Below, in pieces: positions 22,921 through 61,091 of a DNA stretch of 64,000 nt (its first letter is position 1; every line of letters begins with the position of its first letter). Position numbers and translations under genes: made by a program. The DNA is from Gemmobacter lanyuensis (GTDB lineage Bacteria > Pseudomonadota > Alphaproteobacteria > Rhodobacterales > Rhodobacteraceae): positions 124,001 through 188,000 of the forward strand of contig NZ_BMYQ01000002.1 of NCBI RefSeq assembly GCF_014652355.1. The letters are read 5' to 3'. Below the pieces are notes generated by a model, which was not told the origin of the DNA, made no database searches, and worked only from the letters and a program-made list of their open reading frames with translations.

Positions 22921-23530
22921 GATGGATCGACTTCACTCTCAGCAGCCTTGCATCGCTATGCGTCAGGCTGACGCGCTCGTCCAGATCGAAGTTCCATTCC
23001 TGACGCGCGTCCTCCACCTCATCGACGAAATTCGCGCCCTTGGGGAAAATCGCAAAGCCCGTCGGCGCAAGGTGGCGCGCAGCAAAGCCGCACAGCATCC
23101 GCAGGGATGCCAGAGCCCGGGCCGAAACGACATCCGCGCCCAAGGGCGCCAAAACTTCTACCCGCTGGGTATGGACCTGCACCTTCAAGCCCAGCGTCTG
23201 GGCCGCCTGACGCAGGAAAGTTGCCTTGCGTTGATCAGATTCCACCAGATGAAACGCCGTATCGGGGCTGCGCTCGAGCGCCAAGATCGCCAGAACGATG
23301 CCGGGCAGCCCCCCACCGGATCCAAAATCCGCCCAAATGCGAATTTCCGGCGCCAGATAGGCCCCAATCTGTGCCGAATCTTCAATATGGCGCGACCAAA
23401 GCTCGGCCAGTGTGGATTTGGCCACCAGATTGATCGCCGGATTCCATTTTCGGATCAGCGCTTCATAGGTTTGCAGACGCTCAAATGTTTCACGTGAAAC
23501 ATCGAGACCGCCAATCTCGTTAGCCGTCAT
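22913..23530 (-). CDS. rsmG: 16S rRNA (guanine-527-N7)-methyltransferase RsmG
   Basis: A 205-residue methyltransferase (GidB). [18 protein letters not shown] is the SAM-binding motif [15 protein letters not shown] follows, and [10 protein letters not shown] is typical of RsmG. It makes m7G527 in 16S rRNA. A parS copy at 23486-23501 encodes VSRET near residue 12. The start overlaps the mnmG stop by 4 bases. Confidence 0.96.
23486..23501. promoter_or_regulatory. parS site inside rsmG
   Basis: Perfect TGTTTCACGTGAAACA in the 5' end of rsmG, about 0.6 kb upstream of parA. It encodes VSRET of the RsmG N-terminus. Confidence 0.92.
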
Positions 23531-25401
23531 GATACCGCCTTTTGCGGACGACGCAGGCGCGACAAGATCAGCACCAGCGCCGCGGGTGTCATCCCCTCAA
23601 TCCGCCCCGCCTGGGCCAGCGTCGACGGCTGCTGTCGTTCCAGCTTTTGTTTCAGTTCGCCAGACAGCCCGGACAGCGCAGCATAATCGAAATCCGCTGG
23701 AATTGCGGTACCTTCATCCCGCTTCAGCGCGGCAACATCGGCCGACTGGCGTTCTGCGAATTGGGCGTAAAGCGCGTCGGTGCGGATTTGTGTCTGAATC
23801 TCGGCATCCAGCGCGGCGAATTCGGGCGAAACCTGCGCCATCACGGCCGGCTCCACATCCGGAAAGGCCAACAGCTCCCGTGCGGAGCGGCGGCCACCAT
23901 CTTTGCTGACCTCAATCCCCAACGCCAGCGCTTCTTTCGGCGTCAGGCGCACAGCATCCAGCGCAGCAGCCCCCCGCTCAATGGCTTCCATCTTGCGCGC
24001 AAAGGCCACGCGGCGGTCTTCACGCACACAGCCCAAGGCATCGCCCAGCGGCGTGAGCCTCTGGTCCGCATTGTCGGCCCGAATGCTCAGCCGATATTCT
24101 GCGCGCGACGTAAACATACGGTAAGGCTCACTGACCCCAAAACTGATGAGGTCATCGATCATCACGCCGATATAGCTTGAGGTGCGACTGAACTGCACCG
24201 CATCTTCGCCACGTACCGCCCGCACCGCGTTCAGCGCCGCGACAAGCCCCTGCGCCGCTGCCTCTTCATAACCCGTGGTGCCGTTCACCTGCCCCGCAAG
24301 GTAAAGCCCCGTGAAGGTCTTGCTTTCCAGAGAGAATTTCAGGCCACGCGGATCGAAGTAATCATATTCAATCGCATAGGCCGGCTGCAGGATCTTGACC
24401 TCTTCCAGACCCCGGATCGATCGGACATAGGCATCCTGCACCTCAACGGGCAGCGAACTGGAAATGCCGTTCGGGTAAACGGTATCGTCGTCCAACCCCT
24501 CAGGCTCCAGGAAAACCTGATGGCTGTCCTTTTCGGCAAAGCGCACAACCTTATCCTCAATCGAGGGGCAGTAACGCGGGCCGACGCCTTCGATATGACC
24601 ACCATACATGGCTGAACGCGACAGGTTGGCGCGGATGATGTCATGCGTCTGCGGATTGGTATGGGTGATCCCGCAGGAAATCTGGCGCACCAGCGGCGCC
24701 TTGTTACGGAACGAGAACATCACCGGGTCTTCGTCGCCATCCTGACGGTCCAGAATGTCCCAGTTGATGGTACGACCATGCAGCCGCGGTGGGGTGCCGG
24801 TTTTCAACCGCCCGCGCGGCAGGCCCATATCCGCCAGACGCTGTGCAAGCGAGACCGACGGTTTATCGCCCATCCGGCCCGCTGATTGGCGCACGTCGCC
24901 GATATGAATGATGCCGTTCAGGAAGGTCCCCGCTGTCAGGATTACCGCCCCGGCGCGAATTTCTGCCCCATCAGCCAGCCACAGACCGACAACCCGGTCG
25001 CCTTCGAAAATCAGATCGGCCGCCTCGCCTTCGATCAGGGCCAAATCCGGCTCCGCCTCCAACGCCGCGCGCATCGCGGCACGATAGAGCTTGCGGTCGG
25101 CCTGCGCACGCGGGCCCTGCACCGCGGGCCCTTTGCGACGGTTCAGAAGGCGATACTGAATACCAGCTTGGTCCGCCACACCGCTCATCACCCCGTCCAG
25201 CGCATCAATTTCGCGCACCAGATGGCCCTTGCCAAGGCCGCCGATGGCCGGGTTGCAGGACATCGTCCCGATATCCTGCATCCGCAGGGTGACAAGGGCA
25301 GTCTTCGCCCCCATCCGCGCCGAAGTGGCCGCAGCTTCACAGCCCGCATGCCCTGCCCCGATCACCACGACATCAAAATGTTTCACGTGAAACATCCTCA
25401 T
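23527..25401 (-). CDS. mnmG: tRNA uridine-5-carboxymethylaminomethyl modification enzyme MnmG
   Basis: A 624-residue FAD protein (GidA). The dinucleotide-binding [19 protein letters not shown] starts at about residue 13, and [21 protein letters not shown] follows. With MnmE it forms the cmnm5U34 wobble modification in tRNAs. ATG 25401 overlaps the mnmE stop as ATGA; ATG 25395 (MFHVKH) is the next choice. A parS copy encodes FHVK of this N-terminus. Confidence 0.97.
25379..25394. promoter_or_regulatory. parS site at the mnmG 5' end
   Basis: Perfect TGTTTCACGTGAAACA covering the first codons of mnmG (FHVK), about 3.2 kb left of the predicted origin. Confidence 0.92.
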
Positions 25402-28122: not shown

Positions 28123-28572
28123 TCAGAATTTCACGATGACCGAAGCAACGATCACGATCATCAAAAGCGTCGGAACTTCGTTCATCATCCGGTAGCGGCG
28201 TCCGGTTACGCTGTTGCGCCCTTCCGCGAAATCCCGGCGCCGTGCGGCCAGCCACATGTGAAACGCCGTCATCCCCAGCACAGACCCGGCCTTGAGCCAG
28301 GGCCAAAGCATGGTCCAATCGACAATTCCCGGCGTCAGGACCAGCGCAAGGCCGAAAACCCAGCTTGCGATCATCGCGGGATTCATTATGGCCCGCAGCA
28401 GGCGACGCTCCATGACCTGGAACAGGTCATCCGTCGGATTGCCCTGCCCCACGCGCTCCGCATGGTAGACGAAAAGCCGCGGCAGGTAGAACAGGCCCGC
28501 CATCCAGCTGATGACCGAGATGACATGCAGGAACTTTACCCAAGGGTAGAGGCCCGCCAGAAAATCTTCCAT
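28123..28572 (-). CDS. hemJ: Protoporphyrinogen IX oxidase HemJ
   Basis: A 149-residue membrane protein with about four hydrophobic segments. The HemJ features WVKFLHVISVISWMAGLFYL, with the conserved His, and PRLFVYHAE are at the N-terminus; MKAGSVLGM-like LKAGSVLGMTAFHMWLA lies in the middle. HemJ is the oxygen-independent type of protoporphyrinogen oxidase found in many alphaproteobacteria. ATG 28572 is preferred; an upstream in-frame start at 28593 exists. It is the left flank of the predicted replication origin. Confidence 0.9.
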   Translation of the reverse strand: MEDFLAGLYPWVKFLHVISVISWMAGLFYLPRLFVYHAERVGQGNPTDDLFQVMERRLLRAIMNPAMIASWVFGLALVLTPGIVDWTMLWPWLKAGSVLGMTAFHMWLAARRRDFAEGRNSVTGRRYRMMNEVPTLLMIVIVASVIVKF

Positions 28573-28985
28573 CCCGATCCATCCTTCGTGCAACCTTACC
28601 TCTTCTTAAAGAAAGAAAGAAAAAAAGGAATGTTGATTTAGGGGCTGGGGAAAACCGGATTTCCGGAATCCTCCCTCGGGTTTCCCACAGGCGCGGGGCC
28701 GTGGATAAGTTTGGGACGAATCTTTTTGGGCCTCTTCCGCAAAACCGGCCGCAGCGCTTGTTTTTATGGGCATAGACGCGGTTTTTGACCATCCACAGGG
28801 AGTTATGCAATGGCTGTGGGCCTCTGGCTTGTCCCACAGATCCCGGAAATCCAGCCCACAGGTGGACAAACCCTGCGCTCAGCTTGACAAAACCTGCCTT
28901 CCGACCGCACCAAGGCGAAGACATGACTTTGGCCCCCAAATTCGCGTCAGGAACAAACAGAGATTTTCCACAGCCTCGCCCCCAG
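28573..28985. other. Predicted chromosomal replication origin (oriC)
   Basis: This 413-bp gap has no convincing gene. Seen in order: an A-rich tract at about 28604-28640 that could be the unwinding element. Then DnaA-box-like sites: TTTCCCACA (28681-28689), CGTGGATAA (28700-28708, one mismatch to TTATCCACA on the minus strand), CCATCCACA (28789-28797), GGTGGACAA (28861-28869, minus strand) and TTTTCCACA (28964-28972, one mismatch). Further CCCACAG repeats occur between. Flanking genes point away on both sides. In Caulobacter the origin lies just before maf-aroE-coaE-dnaQ, the same position. None of the boxes is a perfect TTATCCACA, and function is inferred. Confidence 0.8.
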
Positions 28986-29585
28986 ATGACTCGCCCGCTT
29001 CTCCTCGCCTCTTCCTCGGAAACCCGGCTCGCGCTGCTGCGTGCGGCGGGGGTTGAGGTCACGGCCCATCCCGCCCGCATTGATGAGGAAACGATCCGCC
29101 GCGCGCTGGAGGCCGAGGGCGCCCATCCGCGCGACATCGCCGATGCCCTGGCCGAGATGAAGGCCCGCAAACTGGCCGAACGGAACCCGACGGCGCTGGT
29201 TCTGGGCTGCGATCAGGTGCTGGAATTTGACCATCGCGCCTGGGGAAAACCCGAAAGTCTTGATGCCGCGCGCGCGCAGCTTTTGTCTATGCGGGGCAAG
29301 ACGCATCGTCTGCTCTCGGCGCTTGTGCTTTATGATGCGGGGGAACCGACTTGGCGCCATATTGGCCGCGTTGACCTGAAAATGCGCGATTTTTCAGATT
29401 CTTGGCTGGAAGGATATCTGGCGCGCAACTGGGAAAGCCTGCGCCATTCCGCCGGGGGCTACAAGCTTGAGGAAGAGGGCGTGCGCCTGTTCTCTTCGAT
29501 CGAGGGCGACTATTTCACCGTTCTGGGCCTGCCGCTGCTGCCGTTGCTGGCCTATCTCGAACTTCGGGGGTTCATCGAGACATGA
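28986..29585 (+). CDS. maf: Maf-family nucleotide pyrophosphatase
   Basis: A 199-residue Maf protein beginning [20 protein letters not shown], the family signature. [12 protein letters not shown] and [11 protein letters not shown] follow. Maf proteins hydrolyse modified or canonical nucleoside triphosphates to monophosphates and pyrophosphate. ATG 28986 matches the conserved start; the upstream open frame belongs to the origin region. Its stop overlaps the aroE start as ATGA. It opens the maf-aroE-coaE-dnaQ operon. Confidence 0.93.
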
Positions 29586-30421: not shown

Positions 30422-31011
30422 CGCCCTTCCGCCTTGGCCTGACCGGCTCTATCGGCATGGGAAAATCCACCACTGCGGCCATGTTTACCGCCGCCACTGT
30501 GCCCGTTTGGGATGCGGATGCTGCGGTGCATCGGCTCTATGCACCGGGTGGGGCTGCCGTGGCGCCGGTGGGGCAACTGGTTCCCAAGGCGATTGGCCCC
30601 GAGGGTGTTTCACGTGAAACATTGAAACAAGCCATCGCTGCCGACCCCACGCTGCTGGCGCAGCTCGAGGCCATCGTTCACCCGCTGGTCGCCGCCGATC
30701 GCGCTGCCTTTCTGGCGGCCGCGCAGACCGATATCGTGGTTTTTGACATCCCGCTGCTATTCGAAAAAGGCACCGAGGCCGAGATGGACGCGACCCTTCT
30801 GGTCACCGCCCCGCCCGAACTGCAGCGCGCGCGGGTGCTGGCCCGCCCCGGTATGACCCCGGCGCAGCTTGACCTGATGCTGTCGCGACAGATGCCGGAC
30901 CGTGACAAACGCGCCCGGGCGACCCATATCATAGAAACCCTCAGCCGCCCTGCGGTCGAAGCCGCCGTGGCTGCGCTGATCGCCTATATCCGGGAAACCC
31001 GCCATGCGTGA
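30418..31011 (+). CDS. coaE: Dephospho-CoA kinase
   Basis: A 197-residue P-loop kinase. Walker [18 protein letters not shown] is at the N-terminus, then [11 protein letters not shown] and [10 protein letters not shown], all typical of CoaE. It carries out the last step of coenzyme A synthesis. A perfect parS site (30606-30621) encodes GVSRETLKQ in the middle of the gene. The stop overlaps the dnaQ start by 8 bases. Confidence 0.96.
30606..30621. promoter_or_regulatory. parS site inside coaE
   Basis: Perfect TGTTTCACGTGAAACA, about 1.6 kb right of the predicted origin. It encodes VSRET. Confidence 0.92.
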
Positions 31012-48333: not shown

Positions 48334-49521
48334 ATGCGTTTCATTTTATCCGCTGCCGCGACGCTGATGCTGGCCGCCCCTGCCCTTGCACAGGATTGGC
48401 AGGCCAAGCTTGAGGCCGCACGCGGTCAGACTGTCTATTTCAATGCCTGGGGCGGCGATCCCCGCACCAATGATTTTCTGACCTGGGTCGGGGCCGAGAC
48501 AGAGCGGCTTTATGGCGTGAAGGTCGAACAGGTGAAACTGGCCGACACCGCCGAGGCCGTCAGCCGCGTTCTGGCCGAGAAGGCCGCCGGGCAGACCGAG
48601 GGGGGCAGTGTCGATCTGATCTGGATCAACGGGCCGAACTTTCTGGCGATGAAGGAGCAGGGCCTGCTGCATGGCCCCTTCGTGGCCGATCTGCCCAATG
48701 CGAAATATCTTGATCTTGCGCCCGGCGCCCCCGCGACGCTCGATTTCACCGTGCCGGTGGAGGGGATGGAAAGCCCCTGGCGGCTGGCCAAATTCGTCTT
48801 TGTCGCGGATACCGCACGCGCGGGCGCCCTGCCCCCGGACATGGCCGGTTTCGTGGATTGGGCCAAGGCGCATCCGGGCCGCATGACCCATCCGAACCCC
48901 GCCAATTTCATGGGCGCGACCTTTCTGAAACAGGCGTTGGTGGAACTGGCGACCGACCCCGCCGCCCTGCAGCAACCCGTCACGGATGAGGCATTTTTGG
49001 CTGTAACAGAGCCGCTTTGGGCTTGGTATGACGCGCTGCGCCCGAACCTCTGGCGTGAAGGGACCGCCTTCCCCGAAAACGAAAGCATCCAGAACCAGAT
49101 GCTGAATGATGGCGAAATCGATCTCTCCATGAGCTTCGATCCCGCTTCGACTGCGGCCTTCATCGAACAGGGGCTGATGCCCGAAACGGCGCGGGTTTTC
49201 GTGCCGAAGGGGGGATCGATCGGGAATATGTCTTTCGTCGCGATCCCCTTCAACGCGGCCCATCGCGCCGGGGCCGAGGTGGTTGCGAACTTCCTGCTTG
49301 ATCCGGCGACGCAGGCCCATGCGCAGGACATCCGGGTTCTGGGCAGTTTCTCGGTTCTGGACCCCACGCGGCTGGACGCGGCGCAAAAGGCGGCCTTCGA
49401 TGCCCTCCCCGCCGCCCCGGCGCTGCCGCGGCTTGAAGATCTGGGGCCGACGCTTCTGGAACCCCATCCCAGCTGGATGACGCGCCTGACCGAAGAATGG
49501 GCGCGCCGGTATACAAGGTGA
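48334..49521 (+). CDS. ABC transporter substrate-binding protein, YnjB-like
   Basis: A 395-residue periplasmic binding protein. The signal peptide is MRFILSAAATLMLAAPALAQ. VYFNAWGGDPRTNDFLTWVG starts the mature fold, DLIWINGPNFLAMKEQGLL follows, and HPSWMTRLTEEWARRY ends it. The arrangement with a double-length permease and an ATPase matches the YnjBCD system, an importer whose substrate is uncertain. ATG 48334 follows GAGAGGAG. A hairpin CCCGTCA/TGACGCGGG lies in the 71-bp gap before it. Confidence 0.85.
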   Translation: MRFILSAAATLMLAAPALAQDWQAKLEAARGQTVYFNAWGGDPRTNDFLTWVGAETERLYGVKVEQVKLADTAEAVSRVLAEKAAGQTEGGSVDLIWINGPNFLAMKEQGLLHGPFVADLPNAKYLDLAPGAPATLDFTVPVEGMESPWRLAKFVFVADTARAGALPPDMAGFVDWAKAHPGRMTHPNPANFMGATFLKQALVELATDPAALQQPVTDEAFLAVTEPLWAWYDALRPNLWREGTAFPENESIQNQMLNDGEIDLSMSFDPASTAAFIEQGLMPETARVFVPKGGSIGNMSFVAIPFNAAHRAGAEVVANFLLDPATQAHAQDIRVLGSFSVLDPTRLDAAQKAAFDALPAAPALPRLEDLGPTLLEPHPSWMTRLTEEWARRYTR

Positions 49522-51182
49522 GACAGTCTGCCGCCCGGATCGGCATTGTCGGAATGCTGACCCTTCCGATCTGGGCGGGCCTGGTTCAAACCCTTGCCGC
49601 GGCTTTCGGCTGGATCCCCGAAATGGGGATGAAAACAGTCACTATTCAGGCAATTTGGCTCTTGCTGGAAGCGCCGGGGTTCTGGCCTGCGTTGCGTTTG
49701 ACGGTGGTGACAGCCGTCGTCGCAACGCTGGTGTCGCTGCTGTTGGCATTCGCACTTTTTGCCCGTCTCGGGGGGCATCGGCCCTGGTTCGTGACCCCCC
49801 TTCTTGCGACGCCGCATGCCGCGCTCGGACTGGGTCTGGCCTTCCTGATCGCACCCGCTGGTTGGTTGATGCGGGCATTCGGGCAGCTGCTCGGCTGGAC
49901 CAGCCCGCCTGCGATTGTCACGGTGGGCGATCCTTTTGGCCTCGCGCTGATGCTGGGGCTGGTGGTGAAAGAGGTGCCGTTCCTGCTGTTGATGATGCTG
50001 GCCGTGCGATTGCCGCTGCCTGTGGGACAACAGATGGCGGCGGGGCGGTCGCTGGGTCATTCAGCGGCATCTGTCTGGATCAAGGTGATTTTCCCGCAGA
50101 TCTATCTGCTGATCCGGCTGCCTCTGTTCATCGTGCTGGCTTTTTCGCTTTCCGTGGTGGATCTGGCGCTGATCCTGGGGCCAGGGGTGCCGCCGCCGCT
50201 GGCTGTCTTGCTGATGCGATGGTTTCTGGGGCCGGACCCTGCCATGATCGCCCCGGCAAGCATGGGTGCGGTTCTGCTGATGGTGCTTGCGGCAGGGTTG
50301 GTCATGCTCTGGATCATGGGTGAACGGTTGCTGGCGCATCTTGGGCGGGGGTGGCTGCGGCGCGGGGGCCGGGGGCGCAGCCTTCATGCCCTGATTGCAG
50401 GTTTTGCGGCCGTGGCGCGATTGGCGCTGGTGCTGGGGATCGCGGCTCTGGGGGTTCTGGCCTTGTGGTCAGTGTCTCTCCGTTGGCCTTTTCCGCATCT
50501 CCTGCCGGATTTCAGCGTGATGGCGTGGCAGGCCGCAGACTGGGCCGATCCTTTCGTGACGACCCTTGCATTGGGCCTTGCCAGCACCGCTGCGGCCCTT
50601 GTTCTGGCGATACTGGTCCTTGAGGCCGAAGATGCTGGCCTCTTGCCGCGGGGACGGTGGTTGACGGCGGTGATCCTGATCCCTGTGCTGGTGCCGCAAA
50701 TCGCGCTTTTGCCGGGCATCTACCGCTTGGCGCTGCCTTTTGGCATGACCGGCGGCTTTGGCGCCACGGTCTGGGCCCATGTGATCTTTGTCTTTCCCTA
50801 TGTCTTTCTGGCCTTGGCCGATCCATGGCGGCGGCTTGACCCACGCATGATCCATGTTGCGGCGGCGCTGGGGGCAGGGCGCGCGCGCAGGTTATGGCGC
50901 CTGAAGTTACCATTGCTTTTGGGGCCGTTGGCCGCGGGCGCTGCCCTTGGCCTTGCGGTTTCCGCAGGCCAGTATCTTTCAACACTTTTTCTGGGGGCTG
51001 GCCGTGTTCAAACCCTTGCGACCGAGGCGGTGGCGCTTGCCTCCGGGGCCGACCGCCGTGCAGCTGCGGCGCATGGGGTGGTCTTGGCCCTGCTGCCGCT
51101 GGCTGCCTATACAGTGGCGATCTGGTTGCCGAGGCACGTTTTCCGCCATCGTAGAGACATGTTAACCGATGCTGCACCTTGA
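49518..51182 (+). CDS. ABC transporter permease, YnjC-like (fused double permease)
   Basis: A protein of about 554 residues with some 12 hydrophobic segments, made of two permease halves in one chain. The EAA-type loops are GRSLGHSAASVWIKVIFPQI in the first half and AAALGAGRARRLWRLKLPLL in the second. It forms the membrane channel for the YnjB/YnjD partners. GTG 49518 overlaps the binding-protein stop as GTGA; ATG 49497 is an alternative that adds 7 residues. It overlaps the ATPase gene by 14 bases. Confidence 0.87.
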   Translation: MRQSAARIGIVGMLTLPIWAGLVQTLAAAFGWIPEMGMKTVTIQAIWLLLEAPGFWPALRLTVVTAVVATLVSLLLAFALFARLGGHRPWFVTPLLATPHAALGLGLAFLIAPAGWLMRAFGQLLGWTSPPAIVTVGDPFGLALMLGLVVKEVPFLLLMMLAVRLPLPVGQQMAAGRSLGHSAASVWIKVIFPQIYLLIRLPLFIVLAFSLSVVDLALILGPGVPPPLAVLLMRWFLGPDPAMIAPASMGAVLLMVLAAGLVMLWIMGERLLAHLGRGWLRRGGRGRSLHALIAGFAAVARLALVLGIAALGVLALWSVSLRWPFPHLLPDFSVMAWQAADWADPFVTTLALGLASTAAALVLAILVLEAEDAGLLPRGRWLTAVILIPVLVPQIALLPGIYRLALPFGMTGGFGATVWAHVIFVFPYVFLALADPWRRLDPRMIHVAAALGAGRARRLWRLKLPLLLGPLAAGAALGLAVSAGQYLSTLFLGAGRVQTLATEAVALASGADRRAAAAHGVVLALLPLAAYTVAIWLPRHVFRHRRDMLTDAAP

Positions 51183-59384: not shown

Positions 59385-61091
59385 ATGGCGGTTCGCATTT
59401 CGCGCCCGGCCTATGCGGCGATGTATGGCCCCACTACGGGTGACCGCCTGCGACTGGGCGATACCGAGCTGATCATCGAGGTTGAGCGCGACCTGACCAC
59501 CTATGGCGAGGAGGTGAAGTTCGGCGGCGGCAAAGTGATCCGTGACGGCATGGGCCAAAGCCAGATCAGCCGGGCCGGGGGCGCGGTGGATACAGTGATC
59601 ACCAATGCGCTGATCGTTGATGCCTCGGGCATCTACAAGGCCGATATCGGGCTGCGCGACGGGCGTATCGCAGCTATCGGCAAGGCCGGAAACCCCGATA
59701 CCCAGCCGGGGGTGACCATCATCATCGGCCCCTCGACCGATGTGATCGCGGGCGAGGGGCGGATCGTCACCGCCGGGGGCATGGACGCGCATATCCATTT
59801 CATCTGCCCGCAACAGGCGGAAGATGCGCTGCATTCTGGCGTCACCACCATGCTGGGCGGCGGCACCGGTCCGTCGCATGGCACGCTGGCCACCACCTGT
59901 ACGCCGGGGCCTTGGCACATCGGGCGGATGTTGCAGGCGCTGGATGCCATTCCGATGAATTTCGGCCTTGCGGGCAAGGGCAATGCCTCGCGCCCCGAGG
60001 CGCTGGTCGAGATGGTGAAGGCCGGGGCCTGCGCCATGAAACTGCATGAGGACTGGGGCACCACCCCCGCCGCCATCGATTGCTGCCTGACCGTGGCCGA
60101 TGAGATGGACGTCCAGGTGATGATCCACACCGACACGCTGAACGAATCCGGTTTTGTCGAGAATACGCTGGCCGCGATTGGCGGGCGGACCATCCATGCC
60201 TTTCACACCGAAGGGGCAGGGGGCGGCCATGCGCCTGATATCATGAAGGTGGTGAGCAGCCAGAATGTGCTGCCCTCCTCGACCAATCCGACGATGCCCT
60301 ATACCGTCAACACGGTGGAGGAGCATCTCGACATGCTGATGGTCTGCCACCATCTGGACCGCTCGATCCCCGAGGATGTGGCCTTTGCCGAAAGCCGTAT
60401 CCGGCGCGAAACCATCGCGGCCGAGGATATCCTGCATGACATGGGGGCCTTCTCGATCATCTCGTCCGACAGTCAGGCGATGGGGCGGGTGGGTGAGGTC
60501 ATCACCCGCACCTGGCAGACCGCGCACAAGATGAAGGTTCAGCGGGGGCGGCTTGCGGAAGAAACCGGCGCGAATGATAACGCCCGCGTCCGTCGCTATA
60601 TCGCGAAATACACCATCAACCCGGCCATCGCCCATGGCCTGTCGCAGCATATCGGCAGCGTGACGGTGGGCAAACGCGCGGATCTGGTGATCTGGAGCCC
60701 GGCCTTCTTTGGCGCCAAGCCCGATATGGTGCTGATGGGGGGCATGATCGTGGTGGCGCAGATGGGCGATCCCAATGGCTCGATCCCGGTGCAGCCCATG
60801 TATTCGCGCCCGATGTTCGGTGCGCTGGGGCGGGCGCGGCATGAAAGCTGTGCCACCTTCCTGTCGGCGGTGGCTTTGGCCGAGGGGGTGGGGGCGACGC
60901 TGGGGTTGCAAAAGCAACTGCTGGCCGCGACGGGCACGCGGACCGTGACGAAATCCGACATGGTCCATAATGCCGCCACCCCGCTGATCGAGGTTCACCC
61001 GGAAACCTATGAGGTGCGCGCGGATGGTGAGCTTTTGACCTGCCAACCCGCCACCGAACTGCCGCTGGCGCAGCGGTATTTCCTGTTTTGA
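59385..61091 (+). CDS. ureC: Urease alpha subunit (catalytic)
   Basis: A 568-residue amidohydrolase. The nickel ligands are in [14 protein letters not shown] and in [10 protein letters not shown] and [15 protein letters not shown]. The carbamylated Lys is in AMKLHEDWG, and the active-site flap Cys is in MVCHHLD. It hydrolyses urea to ammonia and carbamate in the cytoplasm. All key residues are present. Confidence 0.98.

Follow-up and report, generated by a model that had tools for sequence, protein, structure and literature searches.

The window analyzed here, a stretch of 64,000 nucleotides, covers bases 124,001 to 188,000 of contig C2 (402,479 bp) in the draft genome of Gemmobacter lanyuensis (51 contigs, 4.03 Mb). 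By Rho similarity, the nearest named relatives found are Rhodobacteraceae/Paracoccaceae and other alphaproteobacteria. Between hemJ and maf lies an intergenic region at positions 28573 to 28985, with a length of 392 to 413 bp set by the hemJ start chosen. As the initial annotation had read directly from the sequence, this gap contains no recognized gene. Both neighbors diverge from it: hemJ on the minus strand (28123 to 28593; NCBIfam TIGR00701, 138.8 bits with a cut-off of 138.05) and maf on the plus strand (28986 to 29585), for which the top NCBIfam match is the Maf-like model NF002690 (E = 8.6e-61, under its curated cut-off). Curated cut-offs are passed by hemJ, rho, mnmE, mnmG, rsmG, aroE, coaE, dnaQ, secB and the parB domain; the parA candidate matches ParA-like models below their cut-offs only. 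The dnaA gene is located on the same contig, approximately 100 kb to the right of the gap (G000:C2:252831-253037).

Several other features were recorded in the window. Adjacent to one another at 40.6 to 47.1 kb are genes for an ABC transporter, for an efflux protein of the outer membrane and for an adhesin-like product with bacterial Ig domains (BapA_N slightly below its cut-off), an arrangement resembling that of a type I secreted adhesin. A strong local AT skew of −0.32 is present at 49 to 52 kb, and no Pfam family matches the 561-amino-acid ORF at 49497 to 51182 with E ≤ 1e-8. An Rfam match to 5_ureB_sRNA (82.9 bits; 59538 to 59825, minus strand) lies antisense within ureC (59385 to 61091, plus strand) and was set aside for that reason, as it probably reflects conserved coding sequence.

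The gap carries six sites with up to two mismatches to the DnaA box, and six CCACA cores. Two of these sites have a single mismatch, TTATCCACG (28700 to 28708, minus strand) and TTTTCCACA (28964 to 28972, plus strand; the maf-proximal slot of relatives), at exactly the positions given initially. The other four differ at two bases, namely the degenerate box TTTTCCCCA (28646 to 28654, minus strand), which occupies the slot of the relatives' leftmost minus-strand box, and the box-like sequences TTTCCCACA (28681 to 28689, plus strand), CCATCCACA (28789 to 28797, plus strand) and TTGTCCACC (28861 to 28869, minus strand). None of the boxes in this gap is perfect and they are weak. Six sites per 392 bp is the maximum in the window (mean 0.69 per 392 bp; the runner-up place holds five). 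DnaA boxes are also scattered outside the gap, since the whole window holds 15 with at most one mismatch, against 3.8 expected. Over the 400,000 contig bases examined, two such boxes occur within 500 bp in the gap and nowhere else. No CtrA site of the form TTAA-N7-TTAA and no IHF site was found in the gap with simple consensus sequences, which may miss degenerate sites.

The box cluster is shared by orthologous loci. Gaps were cut between maf and hemJ, or rho where hemJ was not found, from 50 loci (L023–L042 and L103–L132). Of these, L026 lacks maf and gave no gap, and L128 is a duplicate of L027. The 49 cut gaps comprise 48 distinct ones including that of this genome, with hemJ as left neighbor in 39 and rho in nine. 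Boxes with at most one mismatch number 117 across this set (14 of them perfect), compared to 4.4 expected from shuffles; three of the 48 gaps contain no such box. In the 34 hemJ-type gaps of 340 to 400 bp, the boxes fall mostly into recurring slots, each dominated by a single orientation. With numbering that starts at hemJ, these slots are positions 40–69 (19 minus, 1 plus), 80–99 (12 plus), 100–109 (8 minus), 190–209 (10 minus, 1 plus), 220–249 (9 plus, 2 minus) and 350–379 (11 plus). Across 21 genomes, the 500-bp bin directly left of maf contains 66 of the approximately 284 boxes within ±50 kb (next highest bin, 13; mean, 1.4). In 19 of these genomes no other cluster equals that of the gap, and in G163 it is tied; in G101, the top cluster starts at −1.08 kb, in the hemE–ppsR gap. 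A second, smaller pile-up of one-mismatch boxes occurs near dnaQ, at +2.0 to +3.0 kb from maf (20 of the approximately 284), and may be coding or regulatory.

The left end of the gap contains a conserved module. R1, a sequence-only model of the left 120 nt, was built from the aligned gaps of 44 relatives with this genome excluded. It matches positions 28605 to 28712 on the plus strand with a genome-wide E value of 1.9e-15 (57.7 bits), which is the only match at E ≤ 10 in the 4.03-Mb genome (145 of 168 first-look candidates scored). In a 25-genome search, the best match was below 1e-4 in 20 genomes besides this one, with weak matches only in G045, G059 and G090, and no match in G101. At E ≤ 0.01, R1 is found in 168 of 198 family genomes (153 of the 174 of good quality) and is lacking in 30, of which 21 are of good quality; this wider scan is no uniqueness test, because its filters were stricter and 18 candidates were scored per genome. 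Among the best 150 of the 168 R1 places, a maf position was available for 136 from a list that likewise ended at 150 lines, and in all 136 listed cases R1 lies upstream of maf, on the maf strand and within 2 kb. The median distance in these cases is 281 bp, with G001 and G074 at approximately 1.1 kb. Of the 136 genomes, 109 are outside the 27 genomes used for training; G117 and G138 coincide by coordinates with the training sequences L025 and L027, leaving 107. Outside the family, 13 of 42 alphaproteobacterial loci match at E < 0.06, each on the expected strand, and 29 do not. Twelve of these matches lie within the maf–hemJ interval; the remaining one, in L065, lies between aroE and hemJ at a locus where maf was not found.

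The surroundings of the gap are marked by parS. As initially annotated, seven sites surround it, all of them perfect 16-mers (7940, 16877, 19962, 23486, 25379, 30606 and 63633), whereas only 0.13 would be expected in the window even with up to three mismatches. No further perfect site was found in the rest of the genome. This number is high in contrast to the one to three sites of 13 relatives. The sites at 23486 to 23501 and 25379 to 25394, approximately −5.5 and −3.6 kb from maf, form the only pair shared with most relatives (perfect in 8 of 12), while the one at 30606 to 30621 lies inside coaE, where the relatives examined have no perfect parS. The gap is thereby close to a parABS system, of which parA is represented by below-cut-off matches only.

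Taken together, the hemJ–maf gap is very probably the DnaA-dependent oriC of the main chromosome, as the initial annotation had proposed, and we place the probability of this assignment at roughly 0.93. Boxes, conserved module, parS sites, synteny, corrected skew and dif-like sites (see below) all fit it. Three features by which an oriC is recognized, a box cluster beyond chance, an AT-rich element beside a box and nearness to parABS, are present. The assignment is based on sequence, conservation, uniqueness and synteny, while DnaA binding, the opening site and the role of the triplets described below are its predicted parts.

GC skew was the check originally suggested for this origin, with the minimum anticipated on the gap. 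This did not turn out as anticipated: the raw cumulative skew of the contig is V-shaped, and its minimum falls approximately +11.4 kb from maf (window position ~40.5 kb), directly before the adhesin-like gene with Ig domains. The KOPS minimum of this genome lies at +20 kb. These positions could be taken to place the origin to the right of maf, at a distance of 10 to 20 kb, with the gap acting only as a DnaA-bound regulatory region. Raw minima in single genomes scatter across ±50 kb, and pooled over 13 genomes the minimum is at +14.6 kb. However, minus-strand genes predominate between +5 and +25 kb in 21 genomes, and because gene direction changes there, the raw skew and KOPS minima were not taken as the origin. 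We fitted fourfold-degenerate sites, using simple ORF picking, in a model that included the direction of genes and a switch point. Over the 21 genomes, the corrected switch fits best at 0, with a log-likelihood gain of 100.7; the gain falls to 94.6 for a switch at +5 kb and to 74.3 for one at +12 kb. A bootstrap over genomes gave a 5–95% range of 0 to +17 kb, with 69% of replicates within ±5 kb and 22% at +8 to +25 kb. The sign of the corrected skew is as expected in 18 of the 21 genomes and wrong at the gap in G052, G101 and G175. For this genome alone, the switch ranges from −49 to +15 kb around maf and is best at +14 kb, with a preference for approximately +14 to +20 kb; as a locator, the gene-direction model on this single contig was discarded as too broad to decide. 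Since no box cluster occurs at +10 to +20 kb in this contig either, an origin to the right of maf is very improbable. The corrected skew agrees loosely with the gap as origin, without proving it.

Over 21 genomes, KOPS show left-type polarity until approximately +7.5 kb and no clear bias onward to about +30 kb. In G175, sampled at steps of approximately 200 kb, KOPS reverse their polarity somewhere from 2.4 to 2.6 Mb; opposite this flip is a point at about 0.42 Mb, close to the maf position of 0.413 Mb. On the origin side of G175, KOPS are mixed, and the GC skew is both noisy and locally of the wrong sign. The terminus was also approached through dif, for which a strict consensus gave hits in 3 of 13 genomes and a looser one gave eight sites in 7 of 14 genomes and none in this genome. 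The distance from maf was expressed as a fraction of the contig for the seven sites on contigs of known extent (G045 has no exact figure). Five of the seven placeable cases lie roughly opposite maf, at 0.49 to 0.55; the exceptions are a second site in G123 (0.11) and the site in G184 (0.25).

As hemJ and maf diverge from the gap, it might also be read as their ordinary divergent promoter, with DnaA acting as a transcription factor. This is very unlikely, because the module does not follow a single left-hand promoter: it persists in the nine of 48 gaps with rho as neighbor, beside hemE in G093, and in the maf–hemJ interval of other alphaproteobacteria, where different genes adjoin it. An origin beside dnaA, where many other bacteria have it and the case that would have spoken against the gap, is hardly credible: although dnaA is on the same contig and starts the numbering in six of 13 relatives searched (G003, G055, G141, G045, G188 and G034), no pair of boxes within 500 bp was found near dnaA in the 400 kb of contig covered, and the dnaA–maf distance varies widely in relatives, in which parS and the box-rich gap keep their place by maf. 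Position 1 of those six records is thus very probably not the origin.

The position of the gap relates it to the Caulobacter origin, which lies beside the same gene block but is flanked by hemE. One of the genes involved is ppsR, identified by PF03618 and presumably the same as COG1806. The initial annotation had noted that hemJ takes the place of hemE as flank, which is apparently explained by the loss of ppsR and relocation of hemE. By Pfam, hemE lies between maf and hemJ in the Brucella, Sphingobium, Nitrospirillum and Rhodobiaceae MAG loci, with ferrochelatase also in this interval in the latter two, and ppsR stands beside maf in the Brucella, Sphingobium and Rhodopseudomonas loci. Within the family, PF03618 has no match in 13 of 14 genomes, including this one. 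All 14 carry hemE, which adjoins the gap in only two of them and in this genome is found on another contig (G000:C4). These two relatives probably retain earlier stages, with the order hemE, gap, ppsR, maf in G101 and hemE, gap, maf in G093, which would suggest an order of events. Since R1 matches the gap of G093 (E = 7.7e-6), as it does maf–hemJ intervals outside the family, the module appears to have stayed while its neighbors changed; the gap of G101 is not matched.

Caulobacter crescentus Cori and its relatives share the block rho, hemJ, [hemH], hemE, gap, ppsR, maf, aroE, and strong and weak DnaA boxes are mixed there as in the gaps described here. The correspondence with Cori-type loci extends to homologous position and module, with R1 in the maf–hemJ interval of 12 of 42 non-family loci. 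In contrast to Cori, the flanks here are hemJ and maf, with hemE elsewhere and ppsR not found in the genome, and no CtrA or simple IHF consensus site was found in this gap. The mapped Caulobacter origin lies between hemE and COG1806 (PMC1914354), and thereby in the maf–hemJ interval that R1 matches in other alphaproteobacteria.

As an origin, the gap would belong to a kind already known, and such sites have been predicted close to parAB in this family. In PMC6699656, the origins of 101 closed Rhodobacteraceae genomes were predicted with Ori-Finder from skew, DnaA boxes and parAB nearness, and eight further genomes could not be placed. Ori-Finder has also been applied to 179 alphaproteobacterial genomes (PMC8116508), and in R. 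sphaeroides the position of the origin region was derived from skew together with the par loci (PMC6315104). The portions of these three sources that were available do not name the flanking genes or the internal anatomy. Marker-frequency data are reported for Paracoccus and Cereibacter (PMC13342612). In the open-access texts searched, in the portions available, neither hemJ–maf as origin nor the triplet element below was found, and we do not claim its absence from print.

The new point raised by this gap is a conserved candidate triplet element between the A-rich tract and the first box, mostly with T in the middle position. From the left, the order is a purine A-rich tract (28608 to 28626, plus strand), present as initially annotated, the triplets ATG TTG ATT TAG (28630 to 28641, plus strand), GGGC, the minus-strand box and the remaining boxes. 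The tract is a probable unwinding element, and the AT content is 0.65 to 0.75 in the first 40 bp, against 0.46 across the gap. The triplets sit in a DnaA-trio-like position, and their function is predicted from it.

Tandem [A/T]TG units recur in the left part of the gaps. Three or more are found in 21 of 48 gaps (0.46 expected from shuffles), and two or more in 36 (9.9 expected). From base 200 onward, none has three or more and seven gaps have two; on the opposite strand of the left part, three units occur in 0 of 49 rows and two in 1 of 49. This genome is not among the 21, as it has two [A/T]TG units followed by ATT and TAG. A pair of units with a terminal TAG-, TAA- or TTG-like unit is in phase in 28 of 34 scorable gaps and out of phase in six; this pattern was written after inspection of the data, 14 of the 48 gaps are unscorable, doubt attaches to a few of the matches (L025, L027), and the counts are not independent, because the gaps share common descent. 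In W-W-G runs, the middle base is T in 67 cases and A in 25. Canonical trios as such were rejected for this genome, whose sequence contains no run of three W-W-G units. A looser run of three [ATG][AT]G units occurs in 25 of 48 family gaps (8.9 expected; 5 on the other strand) and in 5 of the 13 non-family R1 matches (1.2 expected), so that a class-wide triplet claim is weak given that only five of these 13 carry a three-unit run.

The arrangement is reminiscent of the basal unwinding system of Bacillus subtilis and others. In PMC8287927, this system is described with 3'-GAT-5' trios and searched with the pattern 3'-NAN-5', requiring at least three such trios within 16 bp of a DnaA box, and its authors suspect deviant trios without middle adenine. 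The same order of box, short spacer, triplet repeat and A-rich tract applies here, and the final unit, TAG (3'-GAT-5'), is that of the trios of this system (PMC8287927). In contrast to those trios, the earlier units are mostly 5'-ATG/TTG with a middle T rather than A, in phase with TAG, and by the 3'-NAN-5' criterion only TAG has a middle A here when read in phase. Both reading registers are possible, because GATGATGAT in relatives is A-centered and satisfies NAN when shifted by one base. As a tentative proposal, which we consider possible yet doubtful, the family origin might open on a variant DnaA-trio array, in which tandem 5'-[A/T]TG-3' units are mostly in phase with a terminal 5'-TAG-3' by the box.

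In the proposed mechanism, DnaA would bind the dispersed, mostly weak boxes of the gap, and from the leftmost minus-strand box a DnaA filament would extend leftwards across the triplet element. This filament would open the A-rich tract, which may then serve as helicase loading site. ParAB would subsequently move the new origin copies via the nearby parS sites.

If the variant array is real, it would be the suspected deviant trio without middle adenine (PMC8287927) in a form conserved across the family, and it might be traceable in looser form across the class. The triplet element would bear directly on how strict the DnaA-trio code is. For the family, a sequence model built from the gaps finds the predicted origin in draft genomes. 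The origin of this large bacterial family is probably fixed to one gap of approximately 390 bp, not to dnaA, and appears to have stayed put while its classic neighbors ppsR and hemE left.
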